Source of the DNA: an uncultured bacterium
GTDB taxonomy: Bacteria; Planctomycetota; Phycisphaerae; Phycisphaerales; SM1A02
Length of the DNA stretch: 64,000 bases
Reading direction: 5' to 3'
NCBI GenBank assembly: GCA_903891095.1
Contig: CAITDI010000121.1
Location: 1 to 64,000 of the forward strand
In this document: positions 22,269 through 30,780 of the stretch, piece by piece
Numbering within the stretch: position 1 is the first letter of the stretch
Layout of the letters: each line of letters opens with the position of its first letter
Made by a program: the position numbers and the translations under genes
The notes under the pieces: generated by a model
What the model was told of the DNA's origin: nothing
The model's input: only the letters and a program-made list of their open reading frames with translations
Database searches by the model: none

Positions 22269-22291
22269 GGTGGACTCCGATTGAAAGACAT

Positions 22292-22333
22292 CCCCATCGA
22301 GCCGCGCCGGACGACGTGGCGGGCCCGACGGGG
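22292..22333 (-). other. Hairpin between MCO5 and the SCO1-like gene
   Basis: An imperfect stem with arms around 22301-22308 and 22318-22324, closed outside by CCCC (22292-22295) and GGGG (22330-22333). The loop reads GGACGACGT on plus, GTCGTCC on the coding strand. The same loop core occurs in the hairpins after MCO6 and MCO7. No T tract follows, so it is more likely a processing or leader structure than a terminator. Confidence 0.45.
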
Positions 22334-22377
22334 AAGTCGATCTCAACTATGTCCTCAATTCGAGGCCGTGCAAATGT

Positions 22378-24057
22378 TTATGGCGTGATGTCCCAACGAA
22401 CCATCATCGCGTGATCCTCGTGGATCAGGTTATGGCAGTGCATCGGGTACTTGCCGAGCCAGTCGCGGAACTTGATGTACACCTGGATCTGGTCGCCCGG
22501 ATAGAGCGGGTGCACATCCTTGCGGCCTTGCAGCGTCGTGCCAGCGACAGGCACGCCGTTGATGCTGAGATAGCGCGGCTCCTCGCAGTGATTATGAAGC
22601 GGATGCGACCATCCGCCCGCGGTGGAGAAGTTCCAGATCTCGGCGGTGTTGATCTTCACGGCCGCGTCGCAGCGGGTCTGATCGAAGATCTGGCCGTTGA
22701 CCTGCCACATGCCGTTGCCGCGCGTGAGCGCGAACGTGCGCTCGCCGACGACGGGGACGTTCATCTCAGGCTGCGCCCGCAGGAACGTCGGCACGCGGCT
22801 GTTGTCGGGCACGCCCGTCTCGGGGCGGATGATGAACTTGAGCAGCTGCGGCGACTGGTTCATCGGCAGCGTGTTGCCGGTGGGCGCGCGGCCGTTGGTC
22901 TGCTCGGCTCGGTTGACCAGGTAGAGCGTCGTCGTCGATGCGGGCAGGCGGCTGAAGTCGATCACGATGTCCGCGCGCTCGGCGACGTGCAGCTTGACGT
23001 TCTGGCGCTCCATCGGCACCGGAAGCATGTTGCCGTCGTTGGCGAGGTACTGGAACGTCATGCCGTTCGACAGCCAGAAGTCGTATGCGCGCGAGATGCC
23101 GCCGTCGAGCAGACGGAAGCGGTACTTGCGGCGCTCGACCTCGAAGTACGGCTGCACGCGGCCGTTCACGAGGAACTTGTCGCCGAGGATGCCGTCCATG
23201 TTCATGAGATCCATGGTCAGGATGCCGTTGGCGTCGAAGTTGCGGTCGGTGAAGACCAGCGGGATGTCGTAGCGGTTCTTCACGCGCTTGCCATCGGGCA
23301 CGCCGCTGGGCAGACGGAACGCATCGGGATTCGGGTCGTTCTCGTTGCCGCTGTCGAGGTCATCGTGCAGCAGCCAGAAGCCCGTGAGGCCGCGGTACAC
23401 GTTCTGCGACGTGAAGTCGAGGCAGTGGTCGTGGTACCAGAGCGTGCCCTTGGCCTCGAGCTTGTCGGGCTGGCCCGTGGTGATGTCGGTCGCGTAGATG
23501 TTGGGCCAGTGGTGGTCGTGGTAGTGACCGGGGCTGTAGATGTTCCACGGGCCGCCGTCGGACTCGGGCGCGTGGTGGCCGTTGTGGACGTGCGTCGTGA
23601 CATCGCAGTTGCCGAAACCAACCGGCGCGGCGGGAAGGCAGTTCGAGATGCGGCAGTGCGTCGGCTCGCCGTACCTCATCATGAAGGTCGGGCCGGGCAC
23701 GCAGCCGTCGTAGGTGAAGAGCGCGCTAAAGCCCAGCTGCGGATGCGGGCGGCAGAGCTGCTCGCATGCCTGCATCTCGTAGAACTTGACGGGACGGAAC
23801 TCGTCGTAGCGCTGGTGGCGCGCCTCGTCGATCGGCTCGCCGGTCACGTACTGCTGGCCGAACGGGATCGGGATCTTCCACGGCGCGAACGCAAGCGGCT
23901 GCATCCACGGCGTCGTGAACGGGCTCGTCGGGTTCTCCGCGAGCATGGACCGCGAGAACTTGGTGTTGATGAAAAACGCTCCCGTCGCGAGGGCGGTGCC
24001 CTGCGCGAACTGGCGTCGCGAGACCTTGGTATCGAGCGGATTGAGCGAACGAGACAA
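22378..24057 (-). CDS. Multicopper oxidase 5 (CotA/phenoxazinone synthase-like)
   Basis: 559 aa from TTG 24057, chosen because AGAGGTG (24068-24062) is well placed and no ATG or GTG lies closer to the Tat motif; the frame stays open further upstream. The leader SRRQFAQGTALATGAFFINT is twin-arginine type. Copper motifs: THVHNGHH, WYHDHCLDFT, HPLHNHCEEP and HCHNLIHEDHAMM, complete. The minus-strand trio MCO5-7 forms a subfamily distinct from MCO1-4: HNHCEEPRY replaces HFHVEEGR, adding a Cys next to a copper-binding His, and NLIHEDH replaces NGVHEDH at the type 1 site. It is followed by the SCO1-like gene. Confidence 0.9.
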   Translation of the reverse strand: MSRSLNPLDTKVSRRQFAQGTALATGAFFINTKFSRSMLAENPTSPFTTPWMQPLAFAPWKIPIPFGQQYVTGEPIDEARHQRYDEFRPVKFYEMQACEQLCRPHPQLGFSALFTYDGCVPGPTFMMRYGEPTHCRISNCLPAAPVGFGNCDVTTHVHNGHHAPESDGGPWNIYSPGHYHDHHWPNIYATDITTGQPDKLEAKGTLWYHDHCLDFTSQNVYRGLTGFWLLHDDLDSGNENDPNPDAFRLPSGVPDGKRVKNRYDIPLVFTDRNFDANGILTMDLMNMDGILGDKFLVNGRVQPYFEVERRKYRFRLLDGGISRAYDFWLSNGMTFQYLANDGNMLPVPMERQNVKLHVAERADIVIDFSRLPASTTTLYLVNRAEQTNGRAPTGNTLPMNQSPQLLKFIIRPETGVPDNSRVPTFLRAQPEMNVPVVGERTFALTRGNGMWQVNGQIFDQTRCDAAVKINTAEIWNFSTAGGWSHPLHNHCEEPRYLSINGVPVAGTTLQGRKDVHPLYPGDQIQVYIKFRDWLGKYPMHCHNLIHEDHAMMVRWDITP

Positions 24058-24178
24058 CACGCACCTCTGTTGCCGCCGAAGCGGCGATATGTCAGCACAC
24101 GCGGCGAACCGCGCTGCGAACGACAGAAGCCCGTCGAGCGACGACCCCTGATTCGCGTGCTGTGTGTTCAAGCTCGTT

Positions 24179-24212
24179 GCAGGGACGACTGCTGCGAGCC
24201 GGGGCAAGCCCC
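24179..24212 (-). promoter_or_regulatory. Two leader hairpins upstream of MCO5
   Basis: On plus, GCAG (24179-24182) pairs with CTGC (24192-24195) around a loop containing GACGACT, and GGGG (24201-24204) pairs with CCCC (24209-24212) around CAAG. The MCO6 leader has the same two hairpins in the same order with different stem bases but the same loops, a covariation pattern expected of a structured RNA leader. About 125-155 nt before the start. Confidence 0.5.
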
Positions 24213-24342: not shown

Positions 24343-24400
24343 GAAAAACGCCGATCCCCGCCGCGCGCACCAGGACGACAATGGCGCGCGCGACGGGGAT
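24343..24400 (-). terminator. Intrinsic terminator of MCO6
   Basis: ATCCCCG (24354-24360) pairs with CGGGGAT (24394-24400), and CGCGCGC (24362-24368) with GCGCGCG (24384-24390). Five T follow on the minus strand (complement of 24343-24347). The loop contains GTCGTCC on the coding strand, as after MCO5 and MCO7. Confidence 0.75.
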
Positions 24401-24418: not shown

Positions 24419-26101
24419 TTACGCGGTGATGTCCCAGCGGACCATCATGGCGTGATCCTCGTGGATCAGGTTGTGGCAGTGCATCGGGTACTTGCCGAGC
24501 CAGTCGCGGAACTTGATGTAGAACCTGATCTGGTCGCCCGGATAGAGCGGGTGCACGTCCTTGCGGCCCTGGTGCTGCGTGCCGACGACGGACTGGCCGT
24601 TGATCGACAGGTAGCGAGGTTCCTCGCAGTGGTTGTGCATCGGGTGCGCCCAACCGCCTGCGGTGGAGAAGTTCCAGATCTCGGCGGTGTTGATCTTCAC
24701 GGCTGCGTCGCAGCGGTTCTGATCAAAGATGTTGCCGTTGACGGTCCACACGCCGTTCGAGCGGGTGAGCGCAAAGGTGCGCTCGCCGACGACAGGCACG
24801 TTCATTTCGGGCTGCTCGCGGAGGAAGGTCGGCACGCGGCTGTTGTCGGTGACAGAGCCCGGACGGATGATGAACTTGAGCAGCTGGTTCGCCTGGTTCA
24901 TCGGCAGCGTGTTGCCGGTGGGGGCGCGGCCGTTGGTCTGCTCGGCGCGGTTGACGAGGTAGAGCTCGGTCGTCGACGCCGGCAGCTGGCTGAAGTCGAC
25001 GATGATGTCCGCGCGCTCGGCGACGAGCAGCTTGACGTTCTGCACTTCCATCGGCACGGGAATCATGTTGCCGTCGTTGGCGAGGTACTGGAACGTCATG
25101 CCGTTCGACAGCCAGATGTCGTATCCGCGCGAGATGCCGCCGTCGAGCAGACGGAAGCGGTACTTGCGGCGCTCGACCTCGAAGTACGGCTGCACGCGGC
25201 CGTTCACGAGGAACTTGTCGCCGAGGATGCCGTCCATGTTCAGGAGGTCCATGGTCTGGACGCCCGTGATGGGATCGAAGTTGCGGTCGGTGAAGACCAG
25301 CGGGATGTCGTAGCGGTTCTTGACGCGCTTGCCATCGGGCACGCCGCTGGGCAGACGGAACGCGTCCGGATTCGGATCGTTCTCATTGCCGCTGTCGAGG
25401 TCATCGAAGAGCAGCCAGAAGCCCGTCAGGCCGCGGTACACGTTCTGCGACGTGAAGTCGAGGCAGTGGTCGTGGTACCAGAGCGTGCCCTTGGCCTCGC
25501 GCTTGTCGGGGTGACCGGTGGTGATGTCGGTCGCGTAGATGTTCGGCCAGTGGTGGTCGTGGTAGCTGCCGGGGCTGTGGATGTTCCACGGGCCGCCGTC
25601 GGACTCGGGCGCGTGGTGGCCGTTGTGGACGTGCGTGGTGACGTCGCAATTGCCGTAGCCCACGGGCGCAGCCGGGAGGCAGTTGGAGATGCGGCAGTGC
25701 GTCGGCTCGCCGTAGCGCATCATGAAGGTCGGACCAGGCACGCAGCCGTCGTAGGTCGACAGCGGGCTGAGCCCGAGCTGCGGATGCAGGCGGCAGAGCT
25801 GCTCGCATGCCTGCATCTCGTAGAACTTGACGGGACGGAACTCGTCGTAGCGCTGGTGGCGCGACTCGTCGATCGGCGAGCCCGTCACGTACTGCTGGCC
25901 GAACGGGATCGGCGTCTTCCACGGTGCGAATGCGAGCGGCTGCATCCACGGCGTGGTCGCCGGGCTCGCAGGCACGTTCGCGAGCATCGACCGCGAGAAC
26001 TTGGTGTTGATGAAGAACGCGCCCGTGGCGAGGGCCGTGCCCTGCGCGAACGTGCGACGCGAGACCTTCGCGTTCAGGGCGTTGAACGGCGAATCAGACA
26101 A
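24419..26101 (-). CDS. Multicopper oxidase 6 (CotA/phenoxazinone synthase-like)
   Basis: 560 aa from TTG 26101, with GGGGG six nt upstream. The start overlaps the end of a 29-codon leader ORF (TTGTCTGA, 8 nt), which points to translational coupling. Leader: SRRTFAQGTALATGAFFINT. Copper motifs: THVHNGHH, WYHDHCLDFT, HPMHNHCEEP and HCHNLIHEDHAMM, all intact. It is nearly the same as MCO5 over most of its length, so the pair is a recent duplication. It is transcribed as its own unit from the 420-nt region behind the second SCO gene, with a terminator after the stop. Confidence 0.9.
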   Translation of the reverse strand: MSDSPFNALNAKVSRRTFAQGTALATGAFFINTKFSRSMLANVPASPATTPWMQPLAFAPWKTPIPFGQQYVTGSPIDESRHQRYDEFRPVKFYEMQACEQLCRLHPQLGLSPLSTYDGCVPGPTFMMRYGEPTHCRISNCLPAAPVGYGNCDVTTHVHNGHHAPESDGGPWNIHSPGSYHDHHWPNIYATDITTGHPDKREAKGTLWYHDHCLDFTSQNVYRGLTGFWLLFDDLDSGNENDPNPDAFRLPSGVPDGKRVKNRYDIPLVFTDRNFDPITGVQTMDLLNMDGILGDKFLVNGRVQPYFEVERRKYRFRLLDGGISRGYDIWLSNGMTFQYLANDGNMIPVPMEVQNVKLLVAERADIIVDFSQLPASTTELYLVNRAEQTNGRAPTGNTLPMNQANQLLKFIIRPGSVTDNSRVPTFLREQPEMNVPVVGERTFALTRSNGVWTVNGNIFDQNRCDAAVKINTAEIWNFSTAGGWAHPMHNHCEEPRYLSINGQSVVGTQHQGRKDVHPLYPGDQIRFYIKFRDWLGKYPMHCHNLIHEDHAMMVRWDITA

Positions 26102-26183
26102 GATGCACCCCCGATGCGGTTCCGCAAAGCGAAACGTGAGCGTGCTGCGACGCAGCACGGCGCACGCCATGAGACGACTTCAT
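26094..26183 (-). CDS. Leader peptide of MCO6 (uORF)
   Basis: 29 aa. AAGGAG (26194-26189) lies 5 nt before ATG 26183, the best ribosome binding site in this locus. The peptide starts MKSSHGVRRAASQHA and has further His and one Cys (HAHVSLCG). Its TGA (26096-26094) overlaps the MCO6 TTG start by 8 nt. The MCO7 leader ORF begins M-x-SSHG-x-R, contains ASQHA near its end, closes on Val-stop and overlaps its oxidase by the same 8 nt, so the two are homologous. The start codon sits in the stem of a hairpin (26166-26186). I infer a translational switch for the oxidase. Precedent: the cutF small ORF upstream of the multicopper oxidase gene cutO in Rhodobacter capsulatus, which has an unrelated sequence. 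Confidence 0.7.
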   Translation of the reverse strand: MKSSHGVRRAASQHAHVSLCGTASGVHLV

Positions 26184-26262
26184 GGCATACTCCTTGGTTG
26201 GTTGTTGAGCTCGAGCAGTGACGACTACTGCAAGCCAGGACGCAAGGTCCTGTGGTGACGAC
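26166..26262 (-). promoter_or_regulatory. MCO6 mRNA leader with three hairpins
   Basis: On plus: GCCATGA (26166-26172) / TCATGGC (26180-26186) with loop GACGACT, containing the leader-peptide ATG in its stem; GCAGT (26215-26219) / ACTGC (26227-26231) with loop GACGACT; AGGAC (26237-26241) / GTCCT (26247-26251) with loop GCAAG. A third GACGAC lies at 26257-26262. The second and third hairpins match those of MCO5 in loop but not stem sequence. This looks like a folded leader that could expose or hide the leader-peptide ribosome binding site. Confidence 0.55.
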
Positions 26263-26388
26263 AATTGAATGTGGGGGCGATTTGTTCGACTGCAAGGAAT
26301 GCGCGCGCGATCCTCAGTTTTCGGATCTTCAGATACAAACTGCAAAGGTCGCGCATCTCCAACCTGACCATCGCGCAACGCAACACGC

Positions 26389-26447
26389 AAAAAGAAGCGC
26401 ACGCGCTCCTTGCCTGGCTCTTGCGAGTTTCGGCGAAGCGCGTGCGC
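26389..26447 (-). terminator. Intrinsic terminator of the SCO2-like gene
   Basis: GCGCACGCGCT (26397-26407) pairs with AGCGCGTGCGC (26437-26447). On the minus strand a TTTTT stretch follows (complement of 26390-26394). The loop is long (29 nt). Confidence 0.65.
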
Positions 26448-26457
26448 TCCCAACCAA

Positions 26458-26496
26458 GGTTCGTTCCGCGGGTTCGTTCTGCGGGTTCGTTTCGCG
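26458..26496. repeat. 13-bp tandem repeat, 3 units
   Basis: GGTTCGTTCCGCG, GGTTCGTTCTGCG and GGTTCGTTTCGCG are directly adjacent, between the SCO2-like stop (26522) and its terminator. A CGCGCG inverted repeat follows at about 26493-26510. Confidence 0.75.
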
Positions 26497-26521
26497 CGAT
26501 GTTTCGCGCGGAATCAGTTCG

Positions 26522-27337
26522 TTACAGCGTCTCCGCATTGAGCGGCGCGCGCTGCTTGTAGCCAGGGATCGGCTTCGTGTTGCCTTCTTGCGGACGCTCG
26601 AGGCCCGCGATCTTGGGGCGCTGGTCGGACGGGAACATCGCGATCATCGCCTGTGCGGTCATGCGCGGCGCGGCGAGCGCGGCGCACGCGGCCCAGCGGT
26701 CGCTCTTGTGGTAGCAGAAGCGCGCCATGCCGGTGTGTCCCGAGAGCGAGCTGTCGACTTCCTCGTTCGGATCGCCAAAGCCGAATGCCCAGCGGATGTC
26801 CTTGATGGTCTCGCGCGACGCCGAGAAGTAGCGCCAGCCCGGACGGCCGTAGATGCCGTGGTCGACCATGAACTGCTTCATCTCCTCGGGCGAGTCCTCG
26901 GCCAGCGAGAACATGTAGAACTTCACGGGGTTGTTCATGATCGGCTTGAGCAGGTCGTAGGTCTCCGCCATGCGCGAAGTCATCGAGCCGCAGATGCCGT
27001 TGCACTTGGCGTACTGGAATGTCGCGGCGAAGACCTGGCCCTCGACGAGATCCTGCTGGAAGTACGCGGTCTTTCCGTCCTGGTCGACGAGCTTGTGATT
27101 GCGGAAGGCACGCGTGCCGTCCGCACGGATCACGAACGCACCGACGCCCTCGGGGATGTCGGCGCCGGACTTCGCGTCCTTGTTGAGCTCCGAGTTGGAA
27201 TCCGTTCCCGACGCGACCTTGAGTCCGCGCGCGCAGCCTCCGAGGAGGAGCGCTGCCGTTGGAAGCATCAGCCCGCCGAGCATGGCACGGCGGTTGAGCG
27301 AGGGCTGTTCGGGCTTGCCGTTGTTGGCGAATGACAT
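26522..27337 (-). CDS. SCO1/SenC-family lipoprotein 2
   Basis: 271 aa from ATG 27337, with AGGAG 6-7 nt upstream. The leader NRRAMLGGLMLPTAALLLGGC has twin arginines and a lipobox Cys at 35, so it may be a Tat-exported lipoprotein. The SCO copper motif is C112-C116 (KCNGIC), with the partner His in GHTGMARF about 110 residues later. The Pro after CxxxC is absent, as in its paralogues. It is closely related to the SCO3-like protein encoded just upstream on the same strand, with shared stretches such as MVDHGIYGRPGWR and DIRWAFGFGDPNEEVDSSL. Probable role: copper insertion or thiol reduction for the exported oxidases. Confidence 0.88.
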   Translation of the reverse strand: MSFANNGKPEQPSLNRRAMLGGLMLPTAALLLGGCARGLKVASGTDSNSELNKDAKSGADIPEGVGAFVIRADGTRAFRNHKLVDQDGKTAYFQQDLVEGQVFAATFQYAKCNGICGSMTSRMAETYDLLKPIMNNPVKFYMFSLAEDSPEEMKQFMVDHGIYGRPGWRYFSASRETIKDIRWAFGFGDPNEEVDSSLSGHTGMARFCYHKSDRWAACAALAAPRMTAQAMIAMFPSDQRPKIAGLERPQEGNTKPIPGYKQRAPLNAETL

Positions 27338-27683
27338 GAAGTCTCCTGCCGCGGGACGATGCGGAGTGGCCTGCTGCGGGTTGGACCAAGGCAAACCTCA
27401 AGCTTGACGCGCTGACGAACGCGCCCAGCTGCCGTGGTCACGGGAACTCCGCATGGTGATGCTGACGCTCGAATGTGCCTCCGAAAGCGGAAGGCGCAAC
27501 TAACTGCTGTCAAATGAGTTGCATCCGATCAATCCGGGCCGCGTGATAATACAGCCCTGTCTTTGCGTTGAAATGCGGCTCAGGCGCGCCAGTCAACCAC
27601 AGGCGCGCAAAGCCCCAAGGGCTGCGCGCGGCCGTGGCATCGATGACGTGTGGCGCGAGCCGAACGTGGCCCGCGAGAGCTGC
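27338..27683 (-). other. Intergenic region between the SCO2- and SCO3-like genes
   Basis: 346 nt without a supported gene. I see a short GCGC stem (27409-27412 / 27421-27424) whose loop reads TTCGTC on the coding strand, and the palindromic string around 27554-27560. The length suggests that SCO2 has its own promoter. Confidence 0.35.
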
Positions 27684-28502
27684 TCAGAGCTGGTTCGCCC
27701 GAAGGGGAGCGCGCGGCACGTAGCCGGGAATCTTGGTCGACGGGATGTCCGCCGGTCGGCAGAGGCCTGCGATCTGCGGGCGCTGGTCCGCGGGGAACAG
27801 CGACACCATCGCGATGGCAGTCTGCTCGGGATTGGCGAGCGCGGGGCACGCGCTCCACTTGTCGAACTTGTGGTGGCCGAAGCGCGCCATCCCGGTGTGG
27901 CCGGTGAGCGAGCTGTCGACTTCCTCGTTCGGGTCGCCGAAGCCGAAGGCCCAGCGGATGTCCTTGATCGCCTCGGGCGAACCCGAGAAGAAGCGCCAGC
28001 CCGGACGGCCGTAGATGCCGTGGTCGACCATGAACTTCTTCATGTCCGCCGGCGCGTCGCTCGCGAGCGAGAAGGCGTAGAACTGCACCGGCTTGTCCAT
28101 GATCGGCTTGAGGAGGTCGTACGCCTCCGCCATGCGCGCGGTCATGCTGCCGCAGATGCCGTTGCACTTGGCGTACTGGAAGGTCGCAGCAAACACGCGG
28201 CCTTCGATGAGGTCGTCCTGGAAGTACGCGACGCGTCCATCCTGGTCGACGAGCTTGTGATTGCGGAACACGCGGGTTCCGTCCGCACGCACCAGCTGTG
28301 CGCCGGGACCTTCGGGGAACTCGATGCCCTTGGCCGCGAGCGGGCGCTCGTCGCTTGTGGCACCGTCGCTGCCGGCCTTGAGCGCGCGCGAGCATCCTCC
28401 CAGCAGCAGCGCCGCGGCGGGAACCAGCATGCTTCCCATCAGCGAGCGGCGGGTAAGCACATGAGGCGACGTTTCCTGTGCGGCGGGATGCTTCGGGATC
28501 AT
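27684..28502 (-). CDS. SCO1/SenC-family lipoprotein 3
   Basis: 272 aa from ATG 28502, with GAAGAGG upstream. The leader TRRSLMGSMLVPAAALLLGG carries a twin-arginine pair, and the lipobox Cys is residue 37. Copper site: C113-C117 (KCNGIC) and the His in GHTGMARF. It is very similar to the SCO2-like protein from about residue 70 onward, so the two are tandem duplicates. It lies 162 nt downstream of MCO7 on the same strand; the gap holds a large hairpin but no T tract on the coding strand, so co-transcription with MCO7 is possible. Confidence 0.88.
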   Translation of the reverse strand: MIPKHPAAQETSPHVLTRRSLMGSMLVPAAALLLGGCSRALKAGSDGATSDERPLAAKGIEFPEGPGAQLVRADGTRVFRNHKLVDQDGRVAYFQDDLIEGRVFAATFQYAKCNGICGSMTARMAEAYDLLKPIMDKPVQFYAFSLASDAPADMKKFMVDHGIYGRPGWRFFSGSPEAIKDIRWAFGFGDPNEEVDSSLTGHTGMARFGHHKFDKWSACPALANPEQTAIAMVSLFPADQRPQIAGLCRPADIPSTKIPGYVPRAPLRANQL

Positions 28503-28565
28503 GCGGACCTCTTCCTGACGTTGCTGTGTGCGGGCAGCGCTTGGCGCGCCGCGGACTTCAAGCCG

Positions 28566-28611
28566 CTATCCGCCGCGCGCGCCAGGACGACTCGGCGCGC
28601 GCGACGGATAG
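28566..28611 (-). other. Large hairpin between MCO7 and the SCO3-like gene
   Basis: CTATCCG (28566-28572) pairs with CGGATAG (28605-28611) and a GC-rich inner stem continues to a loop containing GTCGTCC on the coding strand. It resembles the MCO6 terminator in both stem and loop but is not followed by T on the coding strand. It may attenuate or process the transcript between oxidase and chaperone. Confidence 0.55.
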
Positions 28612-28664
28612 TGCGTTTCTGCTTGCCGGATGTTGAGCCGGCGTGGTTGCTTGCTTGCGACGGC

Positions 28665-30314
28665 TTAGGGCACGATGTCCCAGCGCACCATCATCGCGTG
28701 ATCCTCGTGGATCAGGTTGTGGCAGTGCATCGGATACTTGCCGACCCAGTCGCGGAACTTGATGTACACCGACATGCTCTCGCCTGGCCACATGCCGTGC
28801 ACGTCCTTGCGGGCCTCGTGCGTGGTGCCGGCGACCGGCTGTCCGTTGTAGGTGAGGTAGCGCGGTTCCTCGCAGTGGTTGTGCATCGGATGCGCCCAGC
28901 CGCCCGCGGTGGAGAAGTTCCAGATCTCGGCGGTGCCGATCTTGCAGGCCGCATCGCAGCGGTTCTGGTCGAACAGGTTGCCGTTGACGGTCCACATGCC
29001 GTTGGTGCGCGTGAGGTGCCAGGTGCGCTCGGCGACGACCGGGCGATCCATCGCAGGCAGCGCGCGCAGCGTGGTCGGCACGCGGCTGTTGTCGGGCACG
29101 TTGGTCTCGGGACGGATGATGAACTTGAGCAGCTGGTGCGACTGGTTCATCGGCAGGGTGTTGCCGGTGGGTCCGCGACCGTTGGTCTGCTCGGCGCGAT
29201 TGACGAGGTAGAGCGCGGTGGTCGACGCAGGCAGCTGGCTGAAGTCGACGACGATGTCACCGCGCTCGGCGACGCCAAGCTTGACGTTCTGCAGCGTCAG
29301 CGGCTTGGTGATCATGTTGCCGTCGTTGGCCAGGTACTGGAACGCCATGCCGTTGGAGAGCCACAGGTCCATGTAGCGCGAGATGCCGCTGTTGAGCAGG
29401 CGGAAGCGGTACTTGCGGCGCTCGACCTCGAAGTACGGCTGCACGCGGCCGTTGACGAGGTGCTTGTCGCCGAGGATGCCGTCCATGTTCATCAAGTCCA
29501 TGGTCAGCATGCCGTTCGCGTCGTAGTTGCGGTCGGCAAACACGAGCGGGATGTCGTAGCGGTTCTTGACGCGCTTGCCATCCGGCACGCCGCTGGGGAG
29601 GCGGAACGCATCGGGATTCGGATCGTTCTCATTGCCGCTGTCGCGGTGATCGAACAGCAGGAAGAACCCCGCCATGCCGCGGTACACGTTCTGCGACGTG
29701 AAGTCGTGGCAGTGGTCGTGGTAGAAGAGCGTGCCCTTCGCCTCGAGCTCGTCGCCGCCGGCGTAGATGTTCGGCCAGTGGTGGTCGTGGCAGCAGCCGG
29801 GGTTGTAGAGATCCCAGGGGCCGCCGTCGGATTCAGGGGCGTGGTGGCCGTTGTGGACGTGGGTGATCACGTCGCAGCTGCCGAATCCCTGCACGACCGA
29901 AGGCATGCAGTTGTTGATGCGCGTGAACACGGGCTCGCCGTAGCGCATCATGAAGGTCGGTCCGGGGCACATGCCGTCGTAGCTCGAGTGCGGGCTGAAC
30001 GCCAGCTGCGGGTGTGCGCGGTGCATCGTCTCGCAGACGTTGACCTCATAGAACTTCTGCGGACGGAACTCGTCGAAGCGCTGGAAGTTGGCCTCGTTGA
30101 TCGGCGTGCTGTACTGCTGGCCGAACGGGATCGGGATCTTGTACGGCGCGAACGCGAGCGGCTGCACCCACGGCGTCGTGAACGGGCTCGTCGGCACATC
30201 GGCCAGCATCGAGCGCGAGAACTTGGTGTTGATGAAGAACGCGCCGGTGGCGAGGGCGGAGCCCTGCACGAACGTGCGACGGTTCACGGGCTGGCCGAGG
30301 AATCCGTTAGACAT
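28665..30314 (-). CDS. Multicopper oxidase 7 (CotA/phenoxazinone synthase-like)
   Basis: 549 aa from ATG 30314, with GGAGG about 7 nt upstream. The start overlaps the end of a 36-codon leader ORF by 8 nt (ATGTCTAA). Leader: NRRTFVQGSALATGAFFINT. Copper motifs: THVHNGHH, FYHDHCHDFT, HPMHNHCEEP and HCHNLIHEDHAMM, complete. It belongs to the MCO5-7 subfamily but is the most diverged of it: Trp of WYHDH is replaced by Phe, and the loop after the first copper motif is shorter. It is followed by the SCO3-like gene on the same strand. Confidence 0.9.
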   Translation of the reverse strand: MSNGFLGQPVNRRTFVQGSALATGAFFINTKFSRSMLADVPTSPFTTPWVQPLAFAPYKIPIPFGQQYSTPINEANFQRFDEFRPQKFYEVNVCETMHRAHPQLAFSPHSSYDGMCPGPTFMMRYGEPVFTRINNCMPSVVQGFGSCDVITHVHNGHHAPESDGGPWDLYNPGCCHDHHWPNIYAGGDELEAKGTLFYHDHCHDFTSQNVYRGMAGFFLLFDHRDSGNENDPNPDAFRLPSGVPDGKRVKNRYDIPLVFADRNYDANGMLTMDLMNMDGILGDKHLVNGRVQPYFEVERRKYRFRLLNSGISRYMDLWLSNGMAFQYLANDGNMITKPLTLQNVKLGVAERGDIVVDFSQLPASTTALYLVNRAEQTNGRGPTGNTLPMNQSHQLLKFIIRPETNVPDNSRVPTTLRALPAMDRPVVAERTWHLTRTNGMWTVNGNLFDQNRCDAACKIGTAEIWNFSTAGGWAHPMHNHCEEPRYLTYNGQPVAGTTHEARKDVHGMWPGESMSVYIKFRDWVGKYPMHCHNLIHEDHAMMVRWDIVP

Positions 30315-30417
30315 TCGTGGCCTCCGCGTGCTGGGAGGCGCTGCGCGTGAGCGCGAGAGAGGGACCGACTGCGAAGCCATCACGGTGGGTGAGGCGAGCG
30401 CCATGTGACGACAACAT
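30307..30417 (-). CDS. Leader peptide of MCO7 (uORF)
   Basis: 36 aa from ATG 30417, with GGAG (30429-30426) 8 nt upstream. The peptide begins MLSSHGARLTHRDG and ends SASQHAEATNV; its TAA (30309-30307) overlaps the first codons of MCO7 by 8 nt. Start context, the SSHG-x-R and ASQHA motifs, the Val-stop end, the relative frame and the overlap length all match the MCO6 leader ORF. The start codon again lies in a hairpin, CCATGT (30401-30406) / ACATGG (30414-30419) with a 7-nt loop. Conservation despite different length between the two motifs argues for a translated, functional peptide. Confidence 0.7.
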   Translation of the reverse strand: MLSSHGARLTHRDGFAVGPSLALTRSASQHAEATNV

Positions 30418-30780
30418 GGTTCTTGCTCCGAGGTGTGCATGCAGTTCGACGAGTCCCACTGGGACGACCGGCAGGGTGACGGGAGGGCGTTCCCCGTTAC
30501 TCAGCGAACTGAGCCTTTAGACTTCCCCAAGATGCGGTCTGTGCAAGTTGTGTGGACGGGAATACTTACTTTTTTGCGCTCTGCAGACAATTCGGATTTG
30601 CAAGTGTCGTCTCGCTTCGGTCCGAGTTGTCGCGGCGCGTCTCGTCTCCACAGGAGAGTCGCGAATCGCACTACAGATACGCAACAAAACCAAATCTGGG
30701 TGAATCCGAGTGAATCCGTTTTGGACTGGCGCGCGCGCCAAATGTTGGAGATTGCGGCGTTGCACGGTAGTCTTCGAGGC
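30418..30780. other. Divergent intergenic region, MCO7 versus dockerin-tailed protein
   Basis: 363 nt that must hold promoters of both flanking units. It contains another GACGAC at 30463-30468 next to a small inverted repeat TCCCACTGGGA, and an AT-richer patch around 30660-30730. No gene supported. Confidence 0.4.

Follow-up and report, generated by a model that had tools for sequence, protein, structure and literature searches.

In this work, we analyzed the short open reading frames (ORFs), or leaders, that precede two multicopper oxidase (MCO) genes, MCO6 and MCO7, in a 64,000-nucleotide stretch of contig CAITDI010000121.1 from an uncultured planctomycete of the SM1A02 lineage (hereafter the window). 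Each leader is a genuine, clade-specific short upstream ORF, and our results suggest that the element under the clearest selection is an RNA hairpin rather than the encoded peptide. The reading that we favor, to which we assign a probability of about 0.4, is that hairpins with a UCGUC loop are read on these transcripts by a trans-acting factor, which would gate translation of the leader and of the oxidase coupled to it.

Both leaders lie on the minus strand and were delimited by translation, leader 7 also by its orthologs in three other genomes of the genus (G008, G013 and G014). Leader 6 (26094..26183; 29 codons; peptide MKSSHGVRRAASQHAHVSLCGTASGVHLV) runs 8 nt into the TTG start of MCO6 (24419..26101, minus strand), and leader 7 (30307..30417; 36 codons; peptide MLSSHGARLTHRDGFAVGPSLALTRSASQHAEATNV) runs 8 nt into the start of MCO7 (28665..30314, minus strand), the exact overlaps being TTGTCTGA and ATGTCTAA, respectively. 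The Shine-Dalgarno (SD) sequence is excellent for leader 6 (AAGGAG, spacing of 6 nt) and fair for leader 7 (CGGAG, spacing of 8 nt). A previous sequence-only reading of this DNA had described the two ORFs, their overlaps and their SD sequences in these terms, and had proposed a search for similar leaders in related genomes. Before the orthologous MCO genes of these three genomes, a leader has indeed retained its start codon, an SD-like sequence and an open frame; the leaders there count 34-37 codons: L009 in G013 (MLSSHGVYTVSAPEFSSSSLDNAHLTHASSPIGDMNS; overlap of 4 nt), L010 in G008 (MILSHGAHLSSGFAPVVLPVDRMLAPSTPEVTHE; 8 nt) and L011 in G014 (MLSSHGARLSSGCNVLSILAFGLATREFLSEVTCG; 8 nt). At all five loci, the leader terminates on the MCO start (overlaps of 8, 8, 8, 8 and 4 nt), and an SD-like sequence precedes all five leaders. 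The reading frames of both window oxidases stay open ahead of the start codon (MACAV... in MCO6 and MALAS... in MCO7), but an N-terminally extended oxidase was rejected: L010 and L011 have a stop in the MCO frame 1-2 codons ahead of the MCO start, which makes the overlapped start the MCO start at these two loci.

In a tree of 11 proteins, the leader-bearing genes form one clade (support 99/98) that accounts for their distribution by one gain and one loss, the leader ORF being carried by five of the six genes of this clade. The loss concerns MCO5 (22378..24050, minus strand), which is 90% identical to MCO6, yet its leader ATG and hairpin arms are gone while GTCGTC is retained at 24145. MCO relatives from named genomes that fall outside the clade (L044, L047) display neither a leader nor a GTCGTC block. 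The M-x-SSHG DNA pattern beginning with ATG has two matches in the 3.6-Mb genome, which are leaders 6 and 7, and a slightly looser pattern run on 16 genomes of the genus matched the MCO leaders only, plus one chance match in another frame of a predicted 314-aa ORF. Matches outside the genus, among 397 genomes of the class (L128-L150), were inspected and discarded: none resembles an MCO leader, and the majority fall within long ORFs or abut them; a search of IMG/VR found no relatives. Within named collections, the near relatives are represented by metagenome-assembled genomes from lakes, filed under Planctomycetota or Phycisphaerae.

The 8-nt overlap by itself is unremarkable. When the leader middle was resampled and the frame randomized, the stop fell on the MCO start by chance with P of 0.21-0.32 per locus, for a product of 0.0015 over the five loci, and an unrelated ORF before the leaderless paralog L026 has the identical 8-nt overlap by chance. 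For this reason, the support for the leaders comes mainly from the SD-like sequences, the clade distribution and the joint keeping of the frame. The same per-locus figures are what could be expected if the leaders were untranslated, frame and overlap being accidents of a high G+C content and of the M-S-D/N N-termini of the oxidases, with only the hairpins of importance. Frames that stay open past the MCO start are indeed common at this composition (0.21-0.96). However, five of five are open, preceded by an SD-like sequence and overlapping, with the joint probability given above, and leader presence tracks one clade, which makes this explanation improbable.

Regarding what is conserved within the leaders, only the first codons can be aligned among relatives, and they are covered by a consensus palindrome, CCATG-N9-CATGG, which places the leader AUG in the 5' arm of a predicted hairpin and (U/A)GUCGUC in its 7-nt loop. 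As the sequence-only reading had it, both start codons of the window sit in such hairpins: CCAUGU-[UGUCGUC]-ACAUGG for leader 7 (30401..30419, minus strand; 6 bp) and GUAUGCCAUGA-[AGUCGUC]-UCAUGGCGUGC for leader 6 (26162..26190, minus strand; 11 bp; P of 0.0002-0.002 versus shuffled arms). The CCATG/CATGG arms are present at 5/5 loci and the GTCGTC loop at 4/5, and the inner pair is U-A in MCO7 and L009, A-U in MCO6 and U-G in L011, and is missing in L010. According to folding, the probability that the leader AUG is unpaired is 0.00 in both window leaders, 0.00-0.02 at four of the five loci and 0.54 in L010. Around the five MCO starts, where a stem-loop shielding the SD of the oxidase gene would act, the same quantity varies (0.63, 0.96, 0.00, 0.64 and 0.00 for the start; 0.28, 0.42, 0.11, 0.45 and 0.45 for the SD region).

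This architecture changes the meaning of the peptide motifs. The histidine of SHG is encoded by CAT at all five loci, CAT making up 13-27% of the histidine codons in neighboring genes (P of 2e-4, an optimistic value since the five loci share ancestry), which implies a constraint on nucleotides beyond that on amino acids. Moreover, the SSHG block is the coding image of the hairpin CCAUGN-NGUCGUC-NCAUGG, so that nucleotide identity can explain the motif. The contrary had been claimed earlier, a view that the hairpin-encoding block, its one compensatory change and the rare CAT codon in 5/5 loci do not sustain. Among the motifs that the two window leaders had been said to share, M-x-SSHG stands, with its two sites in the genome, but ASQHA, the terminal Val-stop, the extra histidines and the cysteine do not extend to relatives: ASQHA and Val-stop are common to the two window paralogs only, the middle of the leaders cannot be aligned, and no common peptide motif is found in the relatives beyond SHG.

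These observations bear directly on the proposal that a nascent histidine-rich leader peptide, on binding copper or another metal, alters ribosome stalling or termination and so regulates oxidase translation, as CutF does for CutO. The leader precedes an MCO gene and is conserved in the genus, at least three histidines occur in four of the five leaders, and the principle has been demonstrated for CutF and CruR (PMC9973294, PMC9426467). Nevertheless, the histidines number 4, 3, 3, 3 and 1 (the single one in L011) and the cysteines 1, 0, 0, 0 and 2, hence present in 2/5, the only common motif is the hairpin-encoded SHG, and the leader was lost in MCO5. The hallmarks of the known systems are also missing. 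CutF has a Sec signal, a CxxxC motif and a proline-rich C-terminus (PMC9973294), and CruR, the 145-residue product of a DUF2946 upstream ORF of Bordetella pertussis, combines CXXC and RAPP motifs with Rho-dependent termination (PMC9426467). In the five leader translations, we found no CxxxC, no CXXC or RAPP and no PP (proline-rich stalling motif) anywhere; inspection of these 29- to 37-residue sequences gave no hydrophobic Sec signal, and a Pfam scan of the two window leaders returned no match, DUF2946 included. Because no metal-ligand motif is kept, a metal-binding peptide becomes less likely, and the metal-sensing role that had been suggested for it deserves little credit.

The cutF-cutO pair of Rhodobacter capsulatus, invoked earlier as a functional precedent, remains with CruR among the nearest ones, but not as a family to which the leaders belong. 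It resembles the present case by a small ORF just upstream of a gene for an MCO exported by twin-arginine translocation (Tat) and by an RNA stem-loop that affects translation. In contrast, CutF is an exported protein and the cutO stem-loop shields the SD of cutO, whereas the hairpin described here holds the leader's own start codon, and the leaders, of 29-37 codons and devoid of CutF motifs, overlap the MCO start (PMC9973294). Similarly, CruR shares with them an upstream ORF ahead of copper-related genes but differs by its DUF2946 domain and its CXXC and RAPP motifs (PMC9426467). Membership in either system is therefore rejected; leader and hairpin would function together as a coupled upstream ORF whose start codon is held in a hairpin.

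A second class of hairpins strengthens the view that RNA is the selected element. A hairpin of 16-19 bp with an invariant UCGUCC loop follows MCO stop codons at a distance of 40-75 nt. It is found after MCO7 (28565..28611; 19 bp; loop AGUCGUCC), MCO6 (24353..24400; 19 bp; loop UUGUCGUCC) and MCO5 (22289..22335; loop ACGUCGUCC), each time on the minus strand, and likewise downstream of the orthologous genes in G013 and G014. The stem covaries, with both sides changed at 10 of 19 pairs (0/500 shuffles). A covariance model of this hairpin (R1) scores 66.8, 65.6 and 58.2 bits at MCO7, MCO6 and MCO5, respectively, and, among 41 genomes, finds strong copies at these MCO genes only. On the antisense strand, the score falls to 39.5 bits for MCO7 and 40.6 bits for MCO6, a difference that stems partly from a model built on the sense strand and partly from G-U pairs turning into mismatches; this sense-strand advantage fits an RNA element. 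RUCGUCC hairpins are additionally predicted before the SCO1 gene of the window (26522..27337, minus strand; PF02630), as CCGC-[AUCGUCCC]-GCGG about 20 nt ahead of the start codon, and before a peroxidase gene in G008. In the spacers of the cluster (5.0 kb, four genomes), RTCGTC occurs 26 times in sense and 0 times in antisense orientation, whereas 284 kb of the same genome predict about 7.7 occurrences per strand. Rfam recognized only tRNAs in the window, a permissive scan of 21-31 kb gave nothing credible, no family matches the UCGUC(C) loop, and a literature search on this loop turned up no related bacterial element among the papers listed.

The invariant, palindromic arms of the start hairpin, with their variable inner bases, would also suit a DNA operator bound by a dimeric transcription regulator, the ORF being incidental. 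But the hairpins after the MCO genes behave in the opposite way to an operator, as their loop stays constant, their arms diverge and G-U pairs occur on the sense strand; in addition, the start hairpins are located downstream of the presumed promoter, right at an SD sequence; an operator is thus a poor candidate.

The same loop sequence recurs further upstream. GTCGTC is invariant in 9/9 MCO 5' regions of the genus, mostly as GGTCGTCCC (30461..30469, minus strand, for MCO7), about 75 nt downstream of a TTGC that alignment and pattern matching show to be invariant in the nine loci (30543..30546, minus strand, for MCO7). This TTGC is likely part of a -35 element, of which we take it as the core, if the region is transcribed as we suppose. 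Folding against shuffled arms places the block in the loop of a hairpin for MCO5, MCO6, L024, L025 and L026 (P of 0.004-0.04), for instance as GCAGU-[AGUCGUC]-ACUGC in MCO6 (26215..26231, minus strand; P of 0.018, or 0.145 by a stem-length test) and as AGTCGTCCC in MCO5 (24182..24190, minus strand; P of 0.004, or 0.107). The 5' regions of MCO1-4 are without a conserved GTCGTCCC block. Several other interpretations of this region were rejected. A promoter for an extracytoplasmic function (ECF) sigma factor at GTCGTCCC lacks a -35 GGAAC at the proper distance, and on inspection the invariant TTGC, which lies about 75 nt upstream, is more in keeping with a sigma-70-like promoter. As a genome-wide signature, TTGC...GTCGTCCC gave no clear excess versus a reversed control, a hairpin upstream of GGTCGTCCC (P1) is not significant in most loci, and a GTCGTCCC match in the 5' region of an RCC1-like gene (C35) is probably due to chance. 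Separately, the divergent MCO gene L013 of G012 (minus strand) has a perfect hairpin, GAGUAC-AUCGUUCC-GUACUC, about 255 nt before its Tat motif, with a loop one base off RUCGUCC.

Hairpins that are read in trans through their loop sequence are exemplified by iron-responsive elements and phage coat-protein operators. The hairpins of the MCO cluster resemble them by a conserved loop on a stem of changing sequence and by the presence of several copies on the transcripts of one pathway, but differ in that their loop is without an Rfam family and their binding factor is putative. The factor, which could be a protein that binds RNA or a small RNA whose seed is of the GGACGA type, would recognize the UCGUC loops and either stabilize or open the start hairpin, thereby deciding ribosome entry into the leader. 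Given the overlap between leader stop and oxidase start, translation of the leader would in turn set that of the oxidase through coupling; copper might be involved.

Several points weigh against this scenario. The factor itself is something that we infer. Like the leaderless paralogs, the MCO genes carry an SD-like sequence of their own, here GGAGG/GAGGT inside the 3' end of the leader, so that the coupling between leader and oxidase may be weak. In G008, the loop of the start hairpin (L010) is AUUUUGUCG, with a leader AUG that is only half paired, and the hairpin after the MCO gene carries a different loop as well. The near-invariance of the start-hairpin arms reduces covariation there to one pair. 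The hairpin at the 5' block is not convincing in MCO7, L009, L010 and L011 (P of 0.27-0.8), and the stem-length test of these hairpins is weaker, with an overall Fisher P of 0.026. Finally, the motif counts are not independent as the loci are homologous, and the RTCGTC/GUCGUC motif was chosen post hoc, once the first class had been seen.

The main competitor is a plain coupling device, in which translation of the leader would both feed ribosomes to the oxidase start and keep it open, and would convey no regulated signal, the hairpin merely tuning leader initiation. It would readily account for the overlap with the MCO start at 5/5 loci, the SD-like sequence before every leader and a peptide that is free to vary. 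Yet, it leaves unaccounted for the UCGUC loop on the other hairpins of the cluster, the strand bias and the covarying hairpin after the MCO genes. The SD-like sequence that the MCO genes themselves possess and the existence of paralogs that do without a leader also speak against it. We hold it to be unlikely, though the most serious of the alternatives to loops read in trans. The wider form of the trans-acting model, in which one factor reads UCGUC-loop hairpins on MCO, SCO and di-haem peroxidase transcripts of the genus as a hitherto undescribed post-transcriptional regulon and clamps the leader start codon at the oxidase, is only slightly better placed and is put forward with much reserve.

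The leaders belong to a gene cluster (7098-30314) that comprises seven MCO genes, MCO1-4 on the plus and MCO5-7 on the minus strand, together with three SCO1/SenC and two di-haem CCP_MauG genes. Both oxidases studied here have a twin-arginine N-terminus (NRRTFVQG in MCO7); MCO6 matches PF07731 and PF07732, and MCO7 matches PF07731 and PF00394, with PF07732 just below the cut-off. Downstream of MCO7 lies a SCO1/SenC gene (27684..28502, minus strand; PF02630). After SCO1, a strong hairpin with a T-run behind it (26388-26455, minus strand) resembles an intrinsic terminator between MCO7-SCO2-SCO1 and the MCO6 unit. Among the MCO homologs, L032 (G013:C6:148719-150347) has one in-frame TAA and is a pseudogene or an assembly error. 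At the contig start (9-58, plus strand), a near-perfect 21-bp hairpin is formed by GCCTGGCACGTGTCGTGAGGTGC...GCACCTCGCGACACGTGCCAGGC.

To conclude, almost no RNA regulation has, to our knowledge, been worked out in Planctomycetota. If our favored reading is true, it would add a cis-acting RNA family and its factor to the control of copper enzymes in this phylum, and would show that what looks like a conserved "peptide" motif in a leader can be the by-product of an RNA hairpin. The UCGUC loop then offers a concrete recognition element for fishing out the factor.

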